Shown: positions 1,925 through 13,092 of the stretch, in pieces
Numbering within the stretch: the stretch's first letter is position 1
Layout: every line of letters begins with the position of its first letter
Assembly (NCBI GenBank): GCA_017885225.1
Contig: JAFNGM010000187.1
Location: forward strand, 3,036 to 16,127
Reading direction: 5' to 3'
Origin: Syntrophaceae bacterium
GTDB taxonomy: Bacteria; Desulfobacterota; Syntrophia; Syntrophales; UBA2185
DNA: 13,092 nucleotides
Notes under the pieces: model-generated
Told to the model about the DNA's origin: nothing
The model's input: the letters and a program-made list of their open reading frames with translations, nothing else
Database searches by the model: none
Made by a program: the position numbers and the translations under genes

Positions 1925-2089
1925 ACGGATAAGGTAGTGATAAAAAGATGGATGGATTCTCTTTTAAAACTTATTGAAGACCGAATATTCCCGAGAAAAG
2001 AAAGACTGTGTCTCGTGCCTCTCACAAAAAAGAGACAGGACAGATTTTACGGTGATGAAGAAGATGATCACTATTTTCGTGATAAATAG
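1925..2089 (+). CDS. Possible small basic/acidic protein, 45-54 aa, with non-standard start
   Basis: The frame runs from about 1925 to TAG at 2087-2089. From ACG 1925 it reads TDKVVIKRWMDSLLKLIEDR, then IFPRKERLCLVPLTKKRQDR and FYGDEEDDHYFRDK. It has a positively charged amphipathic start and an acidic tail. AAGGGGGTGATC at 1911-1922 is one mismatch from the ideal Shine-Dalgarno, but ACG (1925) is the codon at the right distance (7 bases after GGGGG). The next possible starts, GTG 1937 and ATG 1952, are 19 and 34 bases away and have no good site of their own. So either ACG is used, the start has mutated, or a distant start serves. A sigma-54-like promoter lies upstream and a strong terminator 84 bp downstream. 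No family is recognised. Confidence 0.4.
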   Translation, partial: TDKVVIKRWMDSLLKLIEDRIFPRKERLCLVPLTKKRQDRFYGDEEDDHYFRDK

Positions 2090-2172
2090 TGGCGCCACTT
2101 CAATCTTTTGCGCTGATTCTACACGCGCGATTTCTCCCTGCAATCTGGATCCCCTCCACGCTGAGTAAAAAG

Positions 2173-2208
2173 AGATGGGGCAAAGGATTACTCCTTTGCC
2201 CCATCTTT
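2173..2208. terminator. Strong bidirectional terminator
   Basis: GATGGGGCAAAGGA (2174-2187), loop TTAC and TCCTTTGCCCCATC (2192-2205) form a perfect 14-bp stem that extends by one more A-T pair. A-rich bases flank the left and T-rich bases the right, so it can stop transcription both ways: from the small ORF on the plus strand and from the selenoprotein gene, whose stop codon is 15 bp away. Confidence 0.85.
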
Positions 2209-2222
2209 ATTTGAGATACACG

Positions 2223-2717
2223 CTATCGCAATTTATCTTCAATGCGTTTTGGGTTGAACCCTGAAATCACTTCACCGTCAATGACAATGATGGGTACTGC
2301 TTTCCGGCCTGCGATACGGTATATATCTTCTGCTTCCTTTCGGTTCGTGTTGACATCGATTTCCTGATAGCGGATTCCTTTTCGCGAAAGAAACTCTTTC
2401 GCCTGGCGGCAGTATGGTCACGTCGTGTTTGTGTAAATGGTAACATCCTTCTGTCGAACCGCGGGAGGCTGTGTGGCTGCGGTTTTCCTATCTGTTGCTG
2501 TTGCCGTCTCTTCCGGGGCAAACGTGCTTTTCACTTCTCCCTGATGGGCAGATGAATCCGGGGGAGTATCGGATAAGTATACATTTCCGTCCTTGTCTTT
2601 CCACTGGTAAAGCTCCCCCGCCTGAACTTGCGAAATGGCTGCCAGATTCGTTATGGTAATGAATAATAACAGGCAGGCAGAGATTTTCACAATCATTAGA
2701 GGACTTTTAAGATCCAT
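2223..2717 (-). CDS. Exported glutaredoxin-like selenoprotein with N-terminal DUF4124-like module (UGA read as Sec)
   Basis: Reading TGA at 2420-2418 as selenocysteine gives one 164-residue protein ending at TAG 2225-2223. Residues 1-33 are a signal peptide (hydrophobic core 12-28, cut after VQA). Residues 34-53 (GELYQWKDKDGNVYLSDTPP) match the DUF4124 pattern. After a Thr/Ala-rich linker (54-88) comes a glutaredoxin fold: VTIYTNTT, active site U100-P-Y-C103, cis-proline V141-P142 and the C-terminal I-S-G-F-N. Sec sits exactly where the family has its first redox Cys, and a hairpin follows at SECIS distance. The start is ATG 2717, with AAGAGG 7 bases upstream; ATG 2741 has none. The likely role is thiol-disulfide or peroxide chemistry in the periplasm or envelope. 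The gene stands alone with its own promoter and terminator. The alternative is a nonsense-mutated pseudogene, made unlikely by the intact downstream half and the hairpin. Confidence 0.85.
2384..2402 (-). promoter_or_regulatory. Bacterial SECIS-like hairpin
   Basis: Fifteen bases after the UGA, the mRNA has GCGAAAG, a five-base loop AGUUU and CUUUCGC: a perfect 7-bp stem with G as the second loop base followed by U. Bacterial SECIS elements lie within the coding sequence just downstream of UGA and carry a G in the first two loop positions, where SelB binds. Spacing and loop both fit. Confidence 0.75.
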
Positions 2718-2741
2718 GAGTGTACCTCTTATGGAAAGCAA

Positions 2742-3254
2742 TTATTTTACCGACATCACTATACATAATATAAGATCGAGAATCAAAAAGAAATAGCGTA
2801 CAAAACAATCCCAATCTAAGGCGCGCAGGAAAGCAGTATCAGCAGGGTGTACAAAAGGGAGTTTTTCCCCAAGGGAAGGGGAATACTTACTCAGCAGGGG
2901 AGCACTATTTTTTCAAAGCATTTTAGCAAGATATTGTTATTACATAGTAATACTTTTTTTTACGTTCTGGAATGTATTTTGCAAAATTATAGTAAAATTA
3001 AAAGGAAGGAGGTGATGATCAAAAAAATTAAAAGCTTACATCTCCTGTTTTTCAGCGATCAATAAATTAAAGCATGGTCAATAATCTCTTAGTCCTAGGC
3101 TGCCAAAGCTTATCACGGGGTTCAGTATTACGATCGCAAATGAAATACCAATTAAATGATTGAGAGGAGGTGGTACAGACGCAGGTTTTTTCGAAAAAGG
3201 GTGAACAGATTGCATTCAATTTTCATCTATGACTATTAACAAGGAGGAAAATCT
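2742..3254. other. Divergent intergenic region with long leader of the protease gene
   Basis: Besides the minus-strand promoter above, TTCTGG (2965-2970) and TATAGT (2988-2993), 17 bases apart, may start a plus-strand transcript with a leader of about 255 bases. That leader holds two Shine-Dalgarno-like motifs not followed by the known gene: GGAGGTG at 3008-3014 and AGGAGGTGG at 3165-3173. The 12-bp palindrome TTTTTCGAAAAA lies at 3186-3197. An open frame at 2847-3065 lacks a ribosome site and is not believed. No known riboswitch class was recognised. Confidence 0.4.
2758..2786 (-). promoter_or_regulatory. Sigma-70-type promoter of the selenoprotein gene
   Basis: On the minus strand TTGATT (2786 to 2781) and TATAGT (2763 to 2758) are 17 bases apart, giving a start near 2751 and a leader of about 34 bases. 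Confidence 0.55.
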
Positions 3255-4766
3255 ATGAAAACCAATCGTATTCTTAACACACGCAGCAGGATCATCAGTC
3301 TGCTCGCATTCCTGTTTGCGTTCATGTTTATCTTCAGTGGGATAGCTTACAGCGCGGGTGAAAAATTCCATGATATTAGCAAGCTCAGACTACCGACAAA
3401 ACTTCAGGAGTTGGTAAAGAATAAACCAAGAGTGAGCGAACAGACACTCAAATTGTATAGAATGCATCAGGGGAGATATCTCTTCCAAGTATTACCGGGA
3501 GAGGAAGTACAGCTCATCCCACCGGAATTGATGGAATATACACCAACCAAAGCGCAAATAGATCAGTCTTTGCAGGTTGCCCCCAATGTTCTAAAGTATC
3601 AATCATACTACAAATCTATGAAGCGCGTAACACTCGTTCCCATATGCGCCGCTACGATTGACCACAGTGCGAAGCAAACACCTATTAAAGATCAGGGCAG
3701 CCGAGGCACATGTGTTGCACATGCTGCGATGGCAGGGTTGGAGGTTGGATACGGTTCGACTGCGCTGAATTTATCCGAGAACTATGCGTATTACAAATTC
3801 CTCGGCAGCAACCCGGCGATTGTGTGCGCAGATCCGGGGTTGAAGACGATTGATGCAGCAGACCTGATGACTGTAAACAAAATGAGTGAGGAAAGTTGCT
3901 GGCCCTATGTAGGAACACTTTCAGGGTTAGGGTGTGCGACTCCAAGTGGCTGGCCGGTTGGTGCATGTGCAGCCGTTGCCAAATATCAGGTGACGAGCCA
4001 CAAGAAAATCTGGAGGCTTGATACGCTTACGTCAGATGAAGGGGAATATATCAACAATCCGAAATATCTCGAGAGCATTTTATGCGCAGGTCACGAGATT
4101 GTTGCGGGATTCCATGTTGCCGGCTGGCCCTCTGGCGCAAAAGGGATCATTGATGTGACAAGTGGTTCACCTATTCAAGGCGGACACGCAATGCTGATAG
4201 TCGGGTATGTCCGTACCACTGACCCGAAGCATGGTGGCGGGTATTTCATCCTCAAGAACAGTTGGGGCACCAATAAAGGTCAGGCCGGTTATGTCTATCT
4301 CACGTATGACTACATCCGTACGTACGCGAAGTATGGATTTTACATTACGAGTGTCCTCCTCCCTAAAAAACCTGATTTGACAGTGACTATTTTGGGGCCG
4401 GCAACAGCAAAACCGGGGCAGAATCTTGGAAAGTCCATTAAAGTGAAATTGACGAACAAAGGAACTGTAGCGGCAAAAAACGTTGTGATAGACCTTGTGA
4501 TTAGCAGTAACAGCACTGTTCCTGTAAAGTTCGCCGTATACAATCCGAGTTACTCTGATGATGTACTTTTAAAGGGAGGCCGTGAAAATGTAGCTTCTAT
4601 TGCGCCTGGTGCGACAATAGATGTGACGCTAAACGGGACAAACCAGATTCCTGCAAATACGAAACCAGGTAAATATTACCTCGGAGTTGTTGCTGATCCG
4701 GGGAAAACGATTGACGAGCTGAATGAGGGTAATAATACTGCTACAACACCCATAACCATACAGTAG
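3255..4766 (+). CDS. Exported papain-family (C1) cysteine protease with C-terminal CARDB-like domain
   Basis: The 503-residue product has a signal peptide (about 1-34, cut near YSA-GE), a pro-region to about 125, a C1 peptidase domain (about 130-368) and an Ig-like CARDB domain (about 372-503). All catalytic residues are present: oxyanion Q147 in DQGSRGTCVAHA, nucleophile C153, H311 in GGHAMLIVGY and N335 in LKNSWGTNKG. The QGSRGTC..HA form is typical of bacterial, rather than plant or animal, papain-like enzymes. CARDB domains mediate adhesion or substrate contact in secreted proteins (KPDLTVTIL..., then LGVVADPGKTIDELNEGNNT). AAGGAGG lies 7 bases before ATG 3255. A strong terminator follows, so it is probably its own transcript. 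It is likely secreted and made as an inactive precursor. A small possible inhibitor and an inactive homologue lie next to it. The family call is firm; substrates are unknown. Confidence 0.92.
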   Translation: MKTNRILNTRSRIISLLAFLFAFMFIFSGIAYSAGEKFHDISKLRLPTKLQELVKNKPRVSEQTLKLYRMHQGRYLFQVLPGEEVQLIPPELMEYTPTKAQIDQSLQVAPNVLKYQSYYKSMKRVTLVPICAATIDHSAKQTPIKDQGSRGTCVAHAAMAGLEVGYGSTALNLSENYAYYKFLGSNPAIVCADPGLKTIDAADLMTVNKMSEESCWPYVGTLSGLGCATPSGWPVGACAAVAKYQVTSHKKIWRLDTLTSDEGEYINNPKYLESILCAGHEIVAGFHVAGWPSGAKGIIDVTSGSPIQGGHAMLIVGYVRTTDPKHGGGYFILKNSWGTNKGQAGYVYLTYDYIRTYAKYGFYITSVLLPKKPDLTVTILGPATAKPGQNLGKSIKVKLTNKGTVAAKNVVIDLVISSNSTVPVKFAVYNPSYSDDVLLKGGRENVASIAPGATIDVTLNGTNQIPANTKPGKYYLGVVADPGKTIDELNEGNNTATTPITIQ

Positions 4767-5734: not shown

Positions 5735-7204
5735 ATGCAACGTTGCCGGACACTTCTCATTATTGCCGCAGTACTACTTCTGATGGGAACACCTGTTGCC
5801 GTGTCTGCAGCCGAACAAGGGATAACACCACCGGGAGCCTATGATTTTCAAAATAGAGAACTGAAGGCGCCGCCAAAAATTTCGATGAAACTGATGGTTC
5901 TGCGGAATCGAATTGCTGCCCAGAAATTGACCTACGAGGTTGGCTATACGGCAGCGATGGATTTCGCGCTGGAACAGATAACGGGATTGTCTGTCCCGGC
6001 CAATTTTGAACAGGAGCTCCAATCCCGGAATGTACTTGCCGCTCGACGTCTCAAAGAATTGCCGGCAGTGACCGCACCCTCATGTTCGAAAGCGGCACCC
6101 AATATTGACTGGAGAAAAATGGGTGATGTCGCACCGGTGAGGGATCAGGGAGCATGCGGCAGCTCCTGGGATTTCGCGACTATCGGTTCCTTTGAGGGGA
6201 GCTGGCGTACAATAAACAATGAAGCCATTCGCACCTCCGCGCAGGATGTTCTTGACTGCAGCAACGGGGGAAACTGCGGCAGTGGCTGGTGGGCGTTCGA
6301 TTATCTTGTTCACAAAGGAGTTTCCGCGGAGGGCATGTATCCATACCATCAAGCGCGAGGAACATGTAATAATACCGTAGCTCGACCCTACAAGGCAGAT
6401 ACCTGGGGATATGTGGGAACAGATCATACTATTCCCAGTGTGGCGGCCATGAAAGAAGCGCTCTGTACATACGGGCTGCTTGCCGTTGCTGTTCACGCTT
6501 CAGACGCGTTTGCAGCGTATACGGGCGGTGTCTTTAATGAAAAAGCTGCCGGTAAGGTCAATCACGGCGTGACCCTTATCGGCTGGGATGACAGCAAGAA
6601 TGCGTGGCTGATTAAAAATTCCTGGGGAACGGGATGGGGAAGTACCTGCGATTACGGCACAGAGCGCGGTTATATGTGGATATCATATAACAGCAATTCC
6701 ATAGGATACGCCGCGGCATGGGTTAAAGCCAAAGCAAAACCGAAACCCATGACCGAGGAGTGCGTTTCCTTTAATCACAGAACTGCAGCGGTGAAAAAGA
6801 TCGATAACAGCTGGAAAATCGTAGACGGTGATCACTCGATATTCAATTTCGGAAAAAATCAGGCTGCGGCAAACCGGTCATTAAAGGTCATCAAGTTTTA
6901 CAAGATGAATAGATCCTGCTCTGTGGGGCGTCCCGATCCCATCTTCAATTATTTCCTGGTCGGGAACAGCGCTCCCGGAGGCACTATGAGCGGCCAGGAC
7001 TGCATAAAATTTAATCCCGACGCCATCCAGATCAAGGAGATTGACAGTCAATGGAAGATCTTCCACGGCAATAAGGTGATGTATGATTTCGGGAACAAAA
7101 TCGACGAAGCGTATCACACGTTTCACATGATCAAGAAATACGGTTTCACTCATCAGTGCTATGTGAAAGGACCGAAACCTCCCTTCCATTATCTGCACAA
7201 ATAA
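5735..7204 (+). CDS. Exported papain-family (C1A) pseudoprotease, catalytic Cys replaced by Ser, with two C-terminal Cys modules
   Basis: The 489-residue product has a signal peptide (1-25), a pro-region (about 30-115) with a faint I29-like VGYTAAMDFALEQITGL, a C1A domain (about 120-332) and two copies of a roughly 70-residue module (342-409 and 421-487). Q138, H277 (VNHGV) and N295 (IKNSWGTGWG) are kept, as are structural Cys at 141, 175 and 181. But the signature CGSCWAF reads CGSSWDF: Ser144 (TCC, 6164-6166) stands where the nucleophile Cys should be, and Asp replaces the usual Ala. It thus probably cannot cleave as a cysteine protease, though Ser-variant homologues exist in other organisms. 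Each module runs C-[VI]-x-F-N, W-K-I, F-x-F/YDFG and ends near CSVGRPDP or CYVKGPKP. AAAGGGAG lies 8 bases before the ATG. Possible roles are substrate binding or regulation of the active protease upstream. Confidence 0.9.
   Translation: MQRCRTLLIIAAVLLLMGTPVAVSAAEQGITPPGAYDFQNRELKAPPKISMKLMVLRNRIAAQKLTYEVGYTAAMDFALEQITGLSVPANFEQELQSRNVLAARRLKELPAVTAPSCSKAAPNIDWRKMGDVAPVRDQGACGSSWDFATIGSFEGSWRTINNEAIRTSAQDVLDCSNGGNCGSGWWAFDYLVHKGVSAEGMYPYHQARGTCNNTVARPYKADTWGYVGTDHTIPSVAAMKEALCTYGLLAVAVHASDAFAAYTGGVFNEKAAGKVNHGVTLIGWDDSKNAWLIKNSWGTGWGSTCDYGTERGYMWISYNSNSIGYAAAWVKAKAKPKPMTEECVSFNHRTAAVKKIDNSWKIVDGDHSIFNFGKNQAAANRSLKVIKFYKMNRSCSVGRPDPIFNYFLVGNSAPGGTMSGQDCIKFNPDAIQIKEIDSQWKIFHGNKVMYDFGNKIDEAYHTFHMIKKYGFTHQCYVKGPKPPFHYLHK
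6755..7198 (+). repeat. Two tandem protein modules in the pseudoprotease C-terminus
   Basis: Residues 341-409 and 421-488 align as ECVSFNHRTAAVKKIDNSWKI / DCIKFNPDAIQIKEIDSQWKI, FNFGKNQAAAN / YDFGNKIDEAY, IKFYKMNRSCSVGRPDPIFN / IKKYGFTHQCYVKGPKPPFH. Each copy has one Cys at the start and one near the end, so an internal disulfide is likely. The DNA copies have diverged, so the duplication is old. Similar modules are seen at the ends of other bacterial exported proteins, from memory. Confidence 0.8.
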
Positions 7205-10848: not shown

Positions 10849-13092
10849 TCACAACAACTGGAGAAGAAACCTCGATTCCCCCTTGTCGTGGAGCTCATGG
10901 AGAAAGGGGCCCCAGATGAGCGCCATCCTCTCCCTGCCGCGCGATTTCGACGCGCCGATGGCGCCGGCGGCGACAAGATACTTGAACATAGTCGGGTATT
11001 TCTTGGACGAGCTTGTCAATATTTCTTCCGCGGCGGCGGCCATCCCCTGAGCATCCCGGCGCCCGACGGCCTTGAAGAGAGCAATCCACTGCTTTTCTGC
11101 TTTTGTGAGGCTCTTTGCGTTCGGCGCCGACTCCAGATACTTCCAGATGGCATCGAGCTCCCCCGTGGTGAGGAAAGGTGTGATGAAGGATCCTGTGTTG
11201 TAAAGCGCCATGAGCCGCTCCGTATCGTCAGTCTTGGTCTTCTGTTCGAAAAGCAGCTTCTTGAGGAGGACGGCATTTTCCCGGATTGCCGTCGGCATCT
11301 GCAGATATTTAATAACATCGAATGTTCCCGTCTCGTAGTAATCGCGGATTCCCATAGCCGAAAAAGCCATGAGGGTCGGTCCGAAGGAAAGGGTCGGCGT
11401 GATGTCCGTCTGAAGGTCTCCCTTCGGGGAACCGGAGAGAATTTCAAAGGCCGGAATCGGCACATGGGCGTACATCAGAAGCTCCGTGGCTTTCGCCTTG
11501 AGAAAGCGGGCCCTGGCCGCGTTCCGGTCAAGGAAAGGGTCGTAGTCTGAATTGGCCGGGATTCGAGATCTTTCAAGAAGCCCGTGAAGGACTTTCCGGT
11601 CGCCCACCTTGCGGAACTCGATGTCCTGGACGGAGCGGATTGAGATGCGCTCAAGGGCCTCCGCGATTTCCGGGACCCGCAATACACCGGGATCGGGAGG
11701 CGGTAAGATTCCTTGCTTTTTCGCCACGATGAGGATATCCCCGGCGTTGGGGGCGTAAACGACGTAATCGGGGAAAGACGCGGATACCGCCTTGAGGACT
11801 GAAATCACCAGGGTCATGTCGATCTCGTAGAGCTGCATCCACTGGACGAAGAGGCCGTCGTCGGCGAGGTGTCGCCGGATCTGGCGGTAAAATTCAACGG
11901 AAAAAAGGCCCGCCACGCCGCTCACCCAGGGATTCGACGGTTCAGAGACGATGATGTCGTACTTCCGGGCGGTCGCGGAAAAAAAGCTCTTCGCGTCATC
12001 AATGTGGATTCTGCTTCGAGGGTCTTTGAATCCTCTCTCGACACGCCAGCTGAAGAATCGCGCGGCCTCCACCATTTCCCGCTCGATTTCGATCGTATCG
12101 ACTTCCGTAAGCTCCGGATACAGGAGGAGAGTGTGGGTCGTGAGGCCGCACCCCATGCCGATATTGGCGACTGTTTTCGCCCGCGGATGCAGGGACAGGG
12201 GGATAACGGCGGAAAGAATCATCGTGTCCTCGTCTCCTATGGCCATGCCTTCTATGTCCATGTTGATTCCGGCATCCACCTTTCCGTTCGTCCGGACGGC
12301 CAGTATTTCGTCTCCCTTGGTCACACTGACGGTGGCCGTTTTCCCGTCCCTGTGGAAAAGGACTTCTGAATCCTGGGGGGAAAGAAGGTTCCCGTTGCGA
12401 TACACGCCGGAGGCCATCTTGTAGGTGTCGAGATGCGCCAGGAGCGCCGTGGAGACAAGAACAGCGGCGACGCCTGCCGCCGCGAAGGCGGGATGGAGCC
12501 TCCGCCCCGGCTCACTGCCTGCTCCCCAGAGAAGCACAATTCCAAGGACGGCATCTATAGAGGCGCCGGCGATAATTATACCCTTGAGCCCGATGAAAGG
12601 GAATCCCACATGGATGCCAAGGAGGACACCTATGATGGCCCCGATCGTATTCGCGGCATAGACGGTCCCGATGCTGCGCTCGCCGTATCCCCGCCGGAGA
12701 AGGACGAAGGTGATGAGTGGGAGGGTCGTCCCCGCGCAGAACGTCGCGGGGAGCATGACGGCGAGGGCGAGGCCATGGCTGACGAGATTAAAGAGGACGT
12801 ATCCCCCGTCGGACTTCTCGAGAGATTCAAGGGCGATCTGCATGGCGCGAAAGGTAATCCCGTAGGTAAGCAGCGTCGATAAGGCAAAGAGCCCCATGGC
12901 AATCTGCAGCCAGCCGAGAAAGCGCACAGGCGCGGCGAGGCGGTCGATGCGCCGCTGGATCCAGAGGCCGCCGCACGCGAGCCCGAGGATGAAGGCGCAG
13001 AGCATAAGCTCAAAGGCATGGGTGGAGCTTCCCAGGACGCGGCTGAGCCCCCCGCCCCCGCCGCCCCCGCCGCGGCCCGCCGCCGCCCCGGC
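10849..13092 (-). CDS. Fused MFS-type membrane protein / spermidine synthase-like protein, N-terminus off window
   Basis: The frame is open from the right edge to TGA 10851-10849. ATG 13005 is not the true start: the frame upstream still reads LSRVLGSSTHAFEL, a conserved piece of the first membrane part. Numbering from that Met, residues 1-190 hold about six membrane helices. The aminopropyltransferase-like domain (about 195-430) has KMASGVYRNG, NGKVDA, a SAM-binding GMGCGLT (283-289), acidic IEIE (306-309) and DIIVSEPSNPWVSGVAGLF (350-368). The last 280 residues are mainly helical and unassigned. Such fusions are common in bacteria, but their substrate is not settled and they need not make spermidine. 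The gene is clearly GC-richer than its neighbours, stands alone on its strand and has no obvious terminator. The family call is firm. Confidence 0.88.
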   Translation of the reverse strand, partial: AGAAAGRGGGGGGGGLSRVLGSSTHAFELMLCAFILGLACGGLWIQRRIDRLAAPVRFLGWLQIAMGLFALSTLLTYGITFRAMQIALESLEKSDGGYVLFNLVSHGLALAVMLPATFCAGTTLPLITFVLLRRGYGERSIGTVYAANTIGAIIGVLLGIHVGFPFIGLKGIIIAGASIDAVLGIVLLWGAGSEPGRRLHPAFAAAGVAAVLVSTALLAHLDTYKMASGVYRNGNLLSPQDSEVLFHRDGKTATVSVTKGDEILAVRTNGKVDAGINMDIEGMAIGDEDTMILSAVIPLSLHPRAKTVANIGMGCGLTTHTLLLYPELTEVDTIEIEREMVEAARFFSWRVERGFKDPRSRIHIDDAKSFFSATARKYDIIVSEPSNPWVSGVAGLFSVEFYRQIRRHLADDGLFVQWMQLYEIDMTLVISVLKAVSASFPDYVVYAPNAGDILIVAKKQGILPPPDPGVLRVPEIAEALERISIRSVQDIEFRKVGDRKVLHGLLERSRIPANSDYDPFLDRNAARARFLKAKATELLMYAHVPIPAFEILSGSPKGDLQTDITPTLSFGPTLMAFSAMGIRDYYETGTFDVIKYLQMPTAIRENAVLLKKLLFEQKTKTDDTERLMALYNTGSFITPFLTTGELDAIWKYLESAPNAKSLTKAEKQWIALFKAVGRRDAQGMAAAAEEILTSSSKKYPTMFKYLVAAGAIGASKSRGRERMALIWGPFLHELHDKGESRFLLQLL

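Follow-up and report, generated by a model that had tools for sequence, protein, structure and literature searches.

The stretch of DNA analysed here, referred to below as the window, comprises 13,092 nucleotides of a contig from a Syntrophaceae bacterium of the order Syntrophales. Its minus strand carries a frame, 2717-2223, that is preceded by an AAGAGG stretch and consists of 99 codons, a TGA and then 64 sense codons up to a TAG, with the TGA as its sole interruption. The features of this gene are listed in Table 1. An earlier reading of the letters by themselves (the sequence-only reading) had placed the in-frame TGA on the first redox Cys of a glutaredoxin, with 64 further residues of that domain behind it, and this was confirmed both by reading the frame and with Pfam profiles. 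The TGA takes the first position of a CPYC motif in the context T-T-U-P-Y-C (U, selenocysteine; Sec), and the part downstream displays the glutaredoxin landmarks A-V-P at residues 140-142 and G-F at 153-154. In the DUF4124 domain upstream, residues W39, D41, G44, P52 and P53 are invariant in an alignment of 27. The hydrophobic maximum of the precursor N-terminus corresponds to residues 8-22, and a hydrophobic, signal-peptide-like start is also kept in homologues, including forms that end before the TGA. A possible lipobox, ISAC at residues 12-15, was rejected, as little hydrophobic sequence lies ahead of it and the Cys is missing in the close homologue P0002. A terminator scan of positions 2000-3260 gave two terminator-like sites against 1.1 expected in shuffled sequences, and the one on the strand of the gene is the 15-pair hairpin behind the TAG. 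The transcript thus probably ends past the glutaredoxin half.

Table 1. Features of the DUF4124-glutaredoxin gene in the window.
Feature	Coordinates	Strand	Details
Gene for a 164-residue precursor, probably a selenoprotein	2223..2717	minus	ATG 2717-2715, Sec codon 100, TAG 2225-2223
TGA codon 100, probably read as selenocysteine	2418..2420	minus	Cys in aligned homologues, TGA in G055
Probable signal peptide, residues 1-33 (V-Q-A before G-E-L)	2619..2717	minus	anatomy by eye
DUF4124 domain (PF13511), residues 25-73	2499..2645	minus	33.6 bits, curated cut-off 22
Glutaredoxin domain, residues 91-164, active site U100-P-Y-C103	2226..2447	minus	PF00462 64.7 bits over 92-151, cut-off 22.9 bits
Putative SECIS hairpin GCGAAAG-AGUUU-CUUUCGC	2384..2402	minus	15 nt past TGA
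Terminator-like hairpin, 15 pairs and T tail	2173..2206	minus	16 nt past TAG

Other genes were also recognised in the window. Two papain-family proteases (PF00112) with signal-peptide-like starts, at 3255-4766 and 5735-7204 on the plus strand, adjoin the selenoprotein gene on the opposite strand, and the former also has a CARDB domain. At 10849-13005 on the minus strand, a long protein has a hydrophobic N-terminal region, which is followed by a spermidine-synthase domain (PF01564).

We searched the protein database with the window protein and obtained 29 matches. That gene callers would give only a short form had been anticipated, and 25 of the 29 indeed stop just before the TGA position. These clusters (P0003-P0027), of which P0003 contains the window's own protein, carry the names 'hypothetical' or 'DUF4124', or none. 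P0002 is 77% identical over the full length and has a Trp recorded at the TGA position, most simply explained as a gene call that reads TGA as Trp. The remaining three matches are other proteins. A search with an alignment resulted in 1,897 matches at 1e-8, and among the 120 best matches listed, all but P0002 (119) possess both domains and a C..C pair. The Cys pattern was found automatically in 116 of these 119 fusion proteins, and the other three, read by eye, are CPYC. Cys at position 100 in homologues, which the sequence-only reading had proposed to look for, is thus borne out in every listed fusion besides P0002. Gene calling ends a protein at TGA, which keeps full-length Sec forms out of a list of this kind and biases the all-Cys result; it reveals that Cys is the conserved residue but says nothing of Sec being rare. 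P0028 and P0029, fusions of a CPYC glutaredoxin with a PDZ domain according to precomputed Pfam assignments, were among the nearest database relatives of the glutaredoxin half.

Concerning genomes, 77 of 100 relatives gave a match at E 0.001, many of them in one domain only, and in an order-level search 49 of 155 genomes matched at 1e-9. Among the matches listed for these 155 genomes, a TGA lies inside the match in two, the source genome and G055, a member of another family of the order, and these are the two fused TGA genes that were read as DNA. G055 has its TGA at the same codon (T-T-P-T-U-P-Y-C), and its protein is 44% identical to the window protein in the search and 39% identical over 155 columns in BLASTP. 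From the TGA on, 34 of 65 residues agree, and the 65 codons display 42, 48 and 28 agreements at first, second and third positions, respectively, which is the pattern of translated sequence. Among the Cys fusions of the order, those of six genomes that belong to the same family as G055 but to another genus have TPTCPWC, and TSWCPYC or similar motifs are present elsewhere. A Cys protein from the database, P0131, shares 68% identity with the Sec form encoded in G055. One Cys-type fusion from the family of the source genome, L029 (G006:C69:11169-11615), has a TAA at the Tyr of C-P-Y-C, and may be a broken gene or an assembly error.

These comparisons bear on the possibility that the TGA is a true stop, in which case translation would yield a DUF4124 protein of 99 residues, and the glutaredoxin half would be a decaying remnant. 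We regard this as very improbable. Although the short form stands in public records, and TGA also seems to be an ordinary stop that ends five other frames of the contig (including the spermidine-synthase-like gene), there is no further stop downstream, the downstream codons are conserved with G055, and both G055 and the 25 clusters have their stop at this very codon. The terminator sits past the glutaredoxin stop, and other Sec glutaredoxins have kept the hairpin, as described below.

The source genome is a draft of 2.6 Mb in 278 contigs, about 90% complete, with N runs elsewhere. The Sec machinery had been predicted to be present, and a profile search of the genome detected selA (563 bits), selB (398 bits) and selD (382 bits), all above curated cut-offs, together with a tRNA-Sec at 72 bits against a gathering score of 47; ARAGORN also calls this tRNA, with the anticodon tca. 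Among 14 named control genomes, scores above the cut-off were obtained for selB in two, selA in one, selD in two and tRNA-Sec in five. The selA gene is broken near its start, at unknown bases of the assembly. The selD gene (L018:1480-2550, G000:C79) has an in-frame TGA of its own, in G-A-G-U-A-C-K, and for this reason SelD of this genome is probably a selenoprotein too. As selB is present in 141 of the 155 genomes of the order, the machinery fails to separate Sec from Cys forms, and we rejected it as a discriminator between the two.

The hairpin of seven pairs with the loop AGUUU that had been noticed 15 nt past the TGA was verified at its position (Table 1). It has a G at the second position of the loop, and the loop is 22 nt away from the UGA. 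A folding energy of -11.1 kcal/mol (z -2.09) was computed for the 38 nt past the TGA, and 6 of 200 shuffled sequences were as good. The rules for bacterial SECIS elements given in the accessible sections of a 2026 review (PMC13188914) are a loop of 3-9 nt, a stem of 4-16 bp, a G in the first two loop positions, a loop 16-37 nt from the UGA, and an energy of -7.5 or lower, and the hairpin complies with them. On the other hand, a comparable hairpin follows 24 of the 506 TGAs on both strands of the window, the one at 2402-2384 included. When the next 20 codons were recoded synonymously at random 20,000 times, 110 sequences gave these seven pairs and 1,780 gave some such hairpin. Taken alone, without the comparison of homologues, the hairpin is weak evidence, and its weight had been overstated.

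We therefore relied on a comparison of Sec and Cys homologues. Out of 395 genomes drawn from the phylum, 39 rows matched at 1e-14, 23 of them with one TGA. The total of 74 pattern-matched frames was reduced by six that were other proteins or chance matches (one each of L004, L013, L035, L048, L083 and L104), and a further three Sec frames (L004, L109 and L110), glutaredoxin-like but of a different type, were treated separately, so that 23 Sec and 42 Cys glutaredoxins remained. Fused loci outside the search pattern, such as L029, L031, L036 and L039, enter no count. The Sec set is made up of L020, from G055, and 22 of the 23 TGA rows of the phylum draw (the TGA row of G184 was left out), and comprises two fused and 21 stand-alone proteins. 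With G-U pairs allowed, all seven pairs are complete in 19 of the 23 Sec glutaredoxins, three others having six and one having five. None of the 42 Cys homologues, and none of the 29 fused Cys rows, has all seven; six pairs are present in one Cys homologue (L081) and five in another. The Ala, Glu and Leu codons of the hairpin are GCG, GAG and CTT in 23/23 Sec glutaredoxins, that is, three invariant synonymous codons. At the Lys and Ser columns of the hairpin the commonest codon has a share of 0.74 and 0.86, and over a set of 22 other conserved columns its share ranges from 0.30 to 0.86. The stems of the Sec glutaredoxins compared show no double changes that compensate each other, so the SECIS argument rests on conservation at synonymous sites, and as the 23 proteins are related to one another, they do not count as 23 independent witnesses.

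The same comparison bears on the idea that the codon is really TGC or TGT and the TGA an error of sequencing or assembly. In its favour, the source genome is a draft with 278 contigs and N runs, and Cys is the usual residue at position 100, but the TGA recurs in G055, 25 separate clusters in the database stop at this position as well, and the SECIS-type hairpin is missing from the Cys homologues. An error is hardly credible.

Several loci met in this comparison display features of their own. L081 (G174:C20), the Cys glutaredoxin with six of the seven SECIS pairs, is perhaps a relic of a Sec ancestor. Downstream of the Cys glutaredoxin of L083 (G399:C14) there is a thioredoxin-like TGA frame, F-H-P-Q-U-L-G-C, which may be another selenoprotein. 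In L084 (G301:C2) and L090 (G173:C45), a small Cys-rich TGA frame with V-V-H-U-G-P-G lies directly upstream of a Cys glutaredoxin.

Four things go beyond chance expectation: where the TGA lies, its reappearance in G055, the database clusters stopping at this point, and what the comparison of homologues shows. Recoding of UGA 100, and a layout of probable signal peptide, DUF4124 domain, flexible linker and glutaredoxin domain, are well supported by these comparisons at the sequence level. Jointly, we estimate a probability of roughly 0.93 that the gene encodes a selenoprotein whose UGA would be read through SelB, Sec-tRNA-Sec and the hairpin, and which is probably exported and most likely acts as a dithiol-type reductase in the cell envelope. 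A selenoprotein in this location has precedents. The formate dehydrogenase-N of E. coli faces the periplasm. The sequence-only reading had called selenoproteins uncommon outside the cytoplasm, which was too strong, as a table in the accessible part of the review includes DsbG-like and TonB-receptor selenoproteins (PMC13188914).

The structure of the protein was predicted with AlphaFold2 using 26 sequences (mean pLDDT 69, pTM 0.44). Confidence was 80-87 over residues 91-164, which adopt a glutaredoxin fold, and low over residues 57-84. The first PDB match in Foldseek was Grx1 from Clostridium oremlandii (7c10, TM 0.84 by target length). By sequence, Grx3 from E. coli ranked first (54.8 bits) and C. 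oremlandii Grx1 second (50.8 bits). According to the accessible text of its description, C. oremlandii Grx1 naturally contains selenocysteine, has a U(or C)PXC motif and acts as a reductase; in the protein used for structure determination, Cys had taken the place of the selenocysteine (PMC7642778). In terms of family models, the window protein passes NF041212, the Uxx-star family, with 71.5 bits against a cut-off of 66, and does not reach the narrower models NF041114, NF041211 and NF047338. Towards the YruB family model TIGR02196 it scored 83 bits and the G055 protein 85.4, below the curated cut-off of 88.55, and the stand-alone Sec glutaredoxin L074 exceeded it at 95.5. The fused Cys proteins of L022 also pass NF041212 (75.6), so this model is no marker of Sec.

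The match to NF041212 raises the possibility that the protein is a selenoprotein but no disulfide reductase, with Sec as a ligand for a metal or metalloid, and the accessible part of the review suggests metal-ligand roles for UXX-star selenoproteins (PMC13188914). We consider this unlikely, since the resolving Cys is kept (UPYC), the nearest characterised structural relative, C. oremlandii Grx1, is a reductase (PMC7642778), and metal genes were not recognised beside the fusion gene. Neighbouring genes were compared as ORFs of at least 90 residues taken longest first, a procedure in which antisense frames may displace real genes, over stretches of the window's contig and of G055, G031, G069 and G133. 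Beyond the fusion genes and the frames overlying them, the only conserved neighbours were matches between G031 and G069, both of one genus. Gene context therefore points to no pathway, and the two papain-type proteases were kept out of the explanation.

We propose the following for a reductase. SelB and Sec-tRNA-Sec would read UGA 100 with the aid of the hairpin just downstream, and the precursor would be exported and work as a dithiol-type reductase in the cell envelope. Export is probable, judging from the signal-peptide anatomy and from the DUF4124 domain that stands behind a signal sequence in TfpC from Neisseria gonorrhoeae. The selenolate of Sec100 would attack a disulfide or an oxidised thiol, Cys103 would resolve the selenenylsulfide, and electrons would be supplied by a membrane carrier of the DsbD/CcdA type and not by glutathione. 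A shortage of Sec-tRNA would lead to termination at the UGA and a 99-residue DUF4124 piece. We infer the independence from glutathione from a search for glutathione synthetase (PF02955), the sole glutathione marker tried, which gave no match in the about 90% complete genome. A role as a glutathione-independent disulfide reductase in the cell envelope is likely, with a DsbD/CcdA-type carrier as the probable electron source. The genome encodes one DsbD_TM protein, on contig C169, which is a candidate for this carrier with no direct link to the fusion gene. It adjoins a thioredoxin and a second glutaredoxin-like frame with an in-frame TGA, T-U-P-F-C (L116:444-686, G000:C169), similar to the frames of L109 and L110.

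The relation between Sec and Cys forms was examined with two trees, each poorly resolved on 75 columns. The second tree left out 16 named loci as well as L004, L109 and L110, and included five additional database proteins. In this tree, thirteen Cys fusions were split from the other 41 rows, the Sec fusions being among the latter (100/100). In tree tests, with P0002 counted as Sec by inference and the groups picked after the first tree, a single clade of all fused rows (p-AU 0.385) and a single clade of the Sec fusions with P0131 (p-AU 0.377) were not rejected, and a single clade of all Sec rows was rejected (p-AU 1.2e-5). Rejection of the latter suggests that Sec and Cys were exchanged more than once. 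A more speculative extension, which we hold as tentative and somewhat doubtful, is a selenium switch: with selenium, the cell would have an exported, glutathione-independent seleno-glutaredoxin fed by CcdA/DsbD, and without it only the 99-residue DUF4124 protein, Sec and Cys being exchanged between close relatives.

As far as searched, Sec glutaredoxins (UxxC) and Cys fusions of DUF4124 with glutaredoxin were already known, and the Sec form of the fusion is unreported. The description of this gene as an unrecognised selenoprotein thus holds for the Sec form of the probably exported DUF4124 fusion and not for the Sec glutaredoxin domain, which belongs to a known family. Our literature search, which had subscription journals and supplements outside its scope, found no paper that joins glutaredoxin, selenoprotein and DUF4124, and none that joins selenoprotein, glutaredoxin and Syntrophales; the DUF4124 papers it found treat other matters, judged by title. 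In the accessible part of the 2026 review, DUF4124, PF13511 and YruB are absent (PMC13188914). Lists of selenoproteins have included Sec glutaredoxins since the analyses of the Sargasso Sea and of Geobacter (PMC1088965, PMC1794560), and fused forms of other selenoproteins with a thioredoxin fold have been described (PMC2398784), according to the accessible parts of these papers. Our results suggest that the 25 shortened database clusters are probably front halves of a selenoprotein, and they bring together a Sec redox centre, a domain whose function is unknown and what looks like an export signal.

Compared to known systems, the window protein resembles C. oremlandii Grx1 and the glutaredoxin of Geobacter sulfurreducens in fold, U-P-x-C motif, Cys homologues and a SECIS element past the UGA, whereas published Sec glutaredoxins are described, in the text accessible, without mention of an exported DUF4124 domain. 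The 21 stand-alone Sec glutaredoxins correspond to its glutaredoxin half only. Its domain passes the model of the Uxx-star family NF041212 but keeps the second Cys (UPYC). TfpC shares the layout of a DUF4124 domain behind a cleavable signal sequence and is predicted to be periplasmic, but it is a pilus assembly factor, and a glutaredoxin domain is unmentioned in the accessible part of its report (PMC7593972). Closest in layout are the Cys DUF4124-glutaredoxin fusions named 'glutaredoxin family protein' in Smithellaceae and Syntrophales, which have the same domains in the same order and a signal-peptide-like start, but differ in having Cys in place of Sec and in the absence of the SECIS-type hairpin. 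Such close Sec and Cys relatives allow a direct test of what selenium gains outside the cytoplasm.
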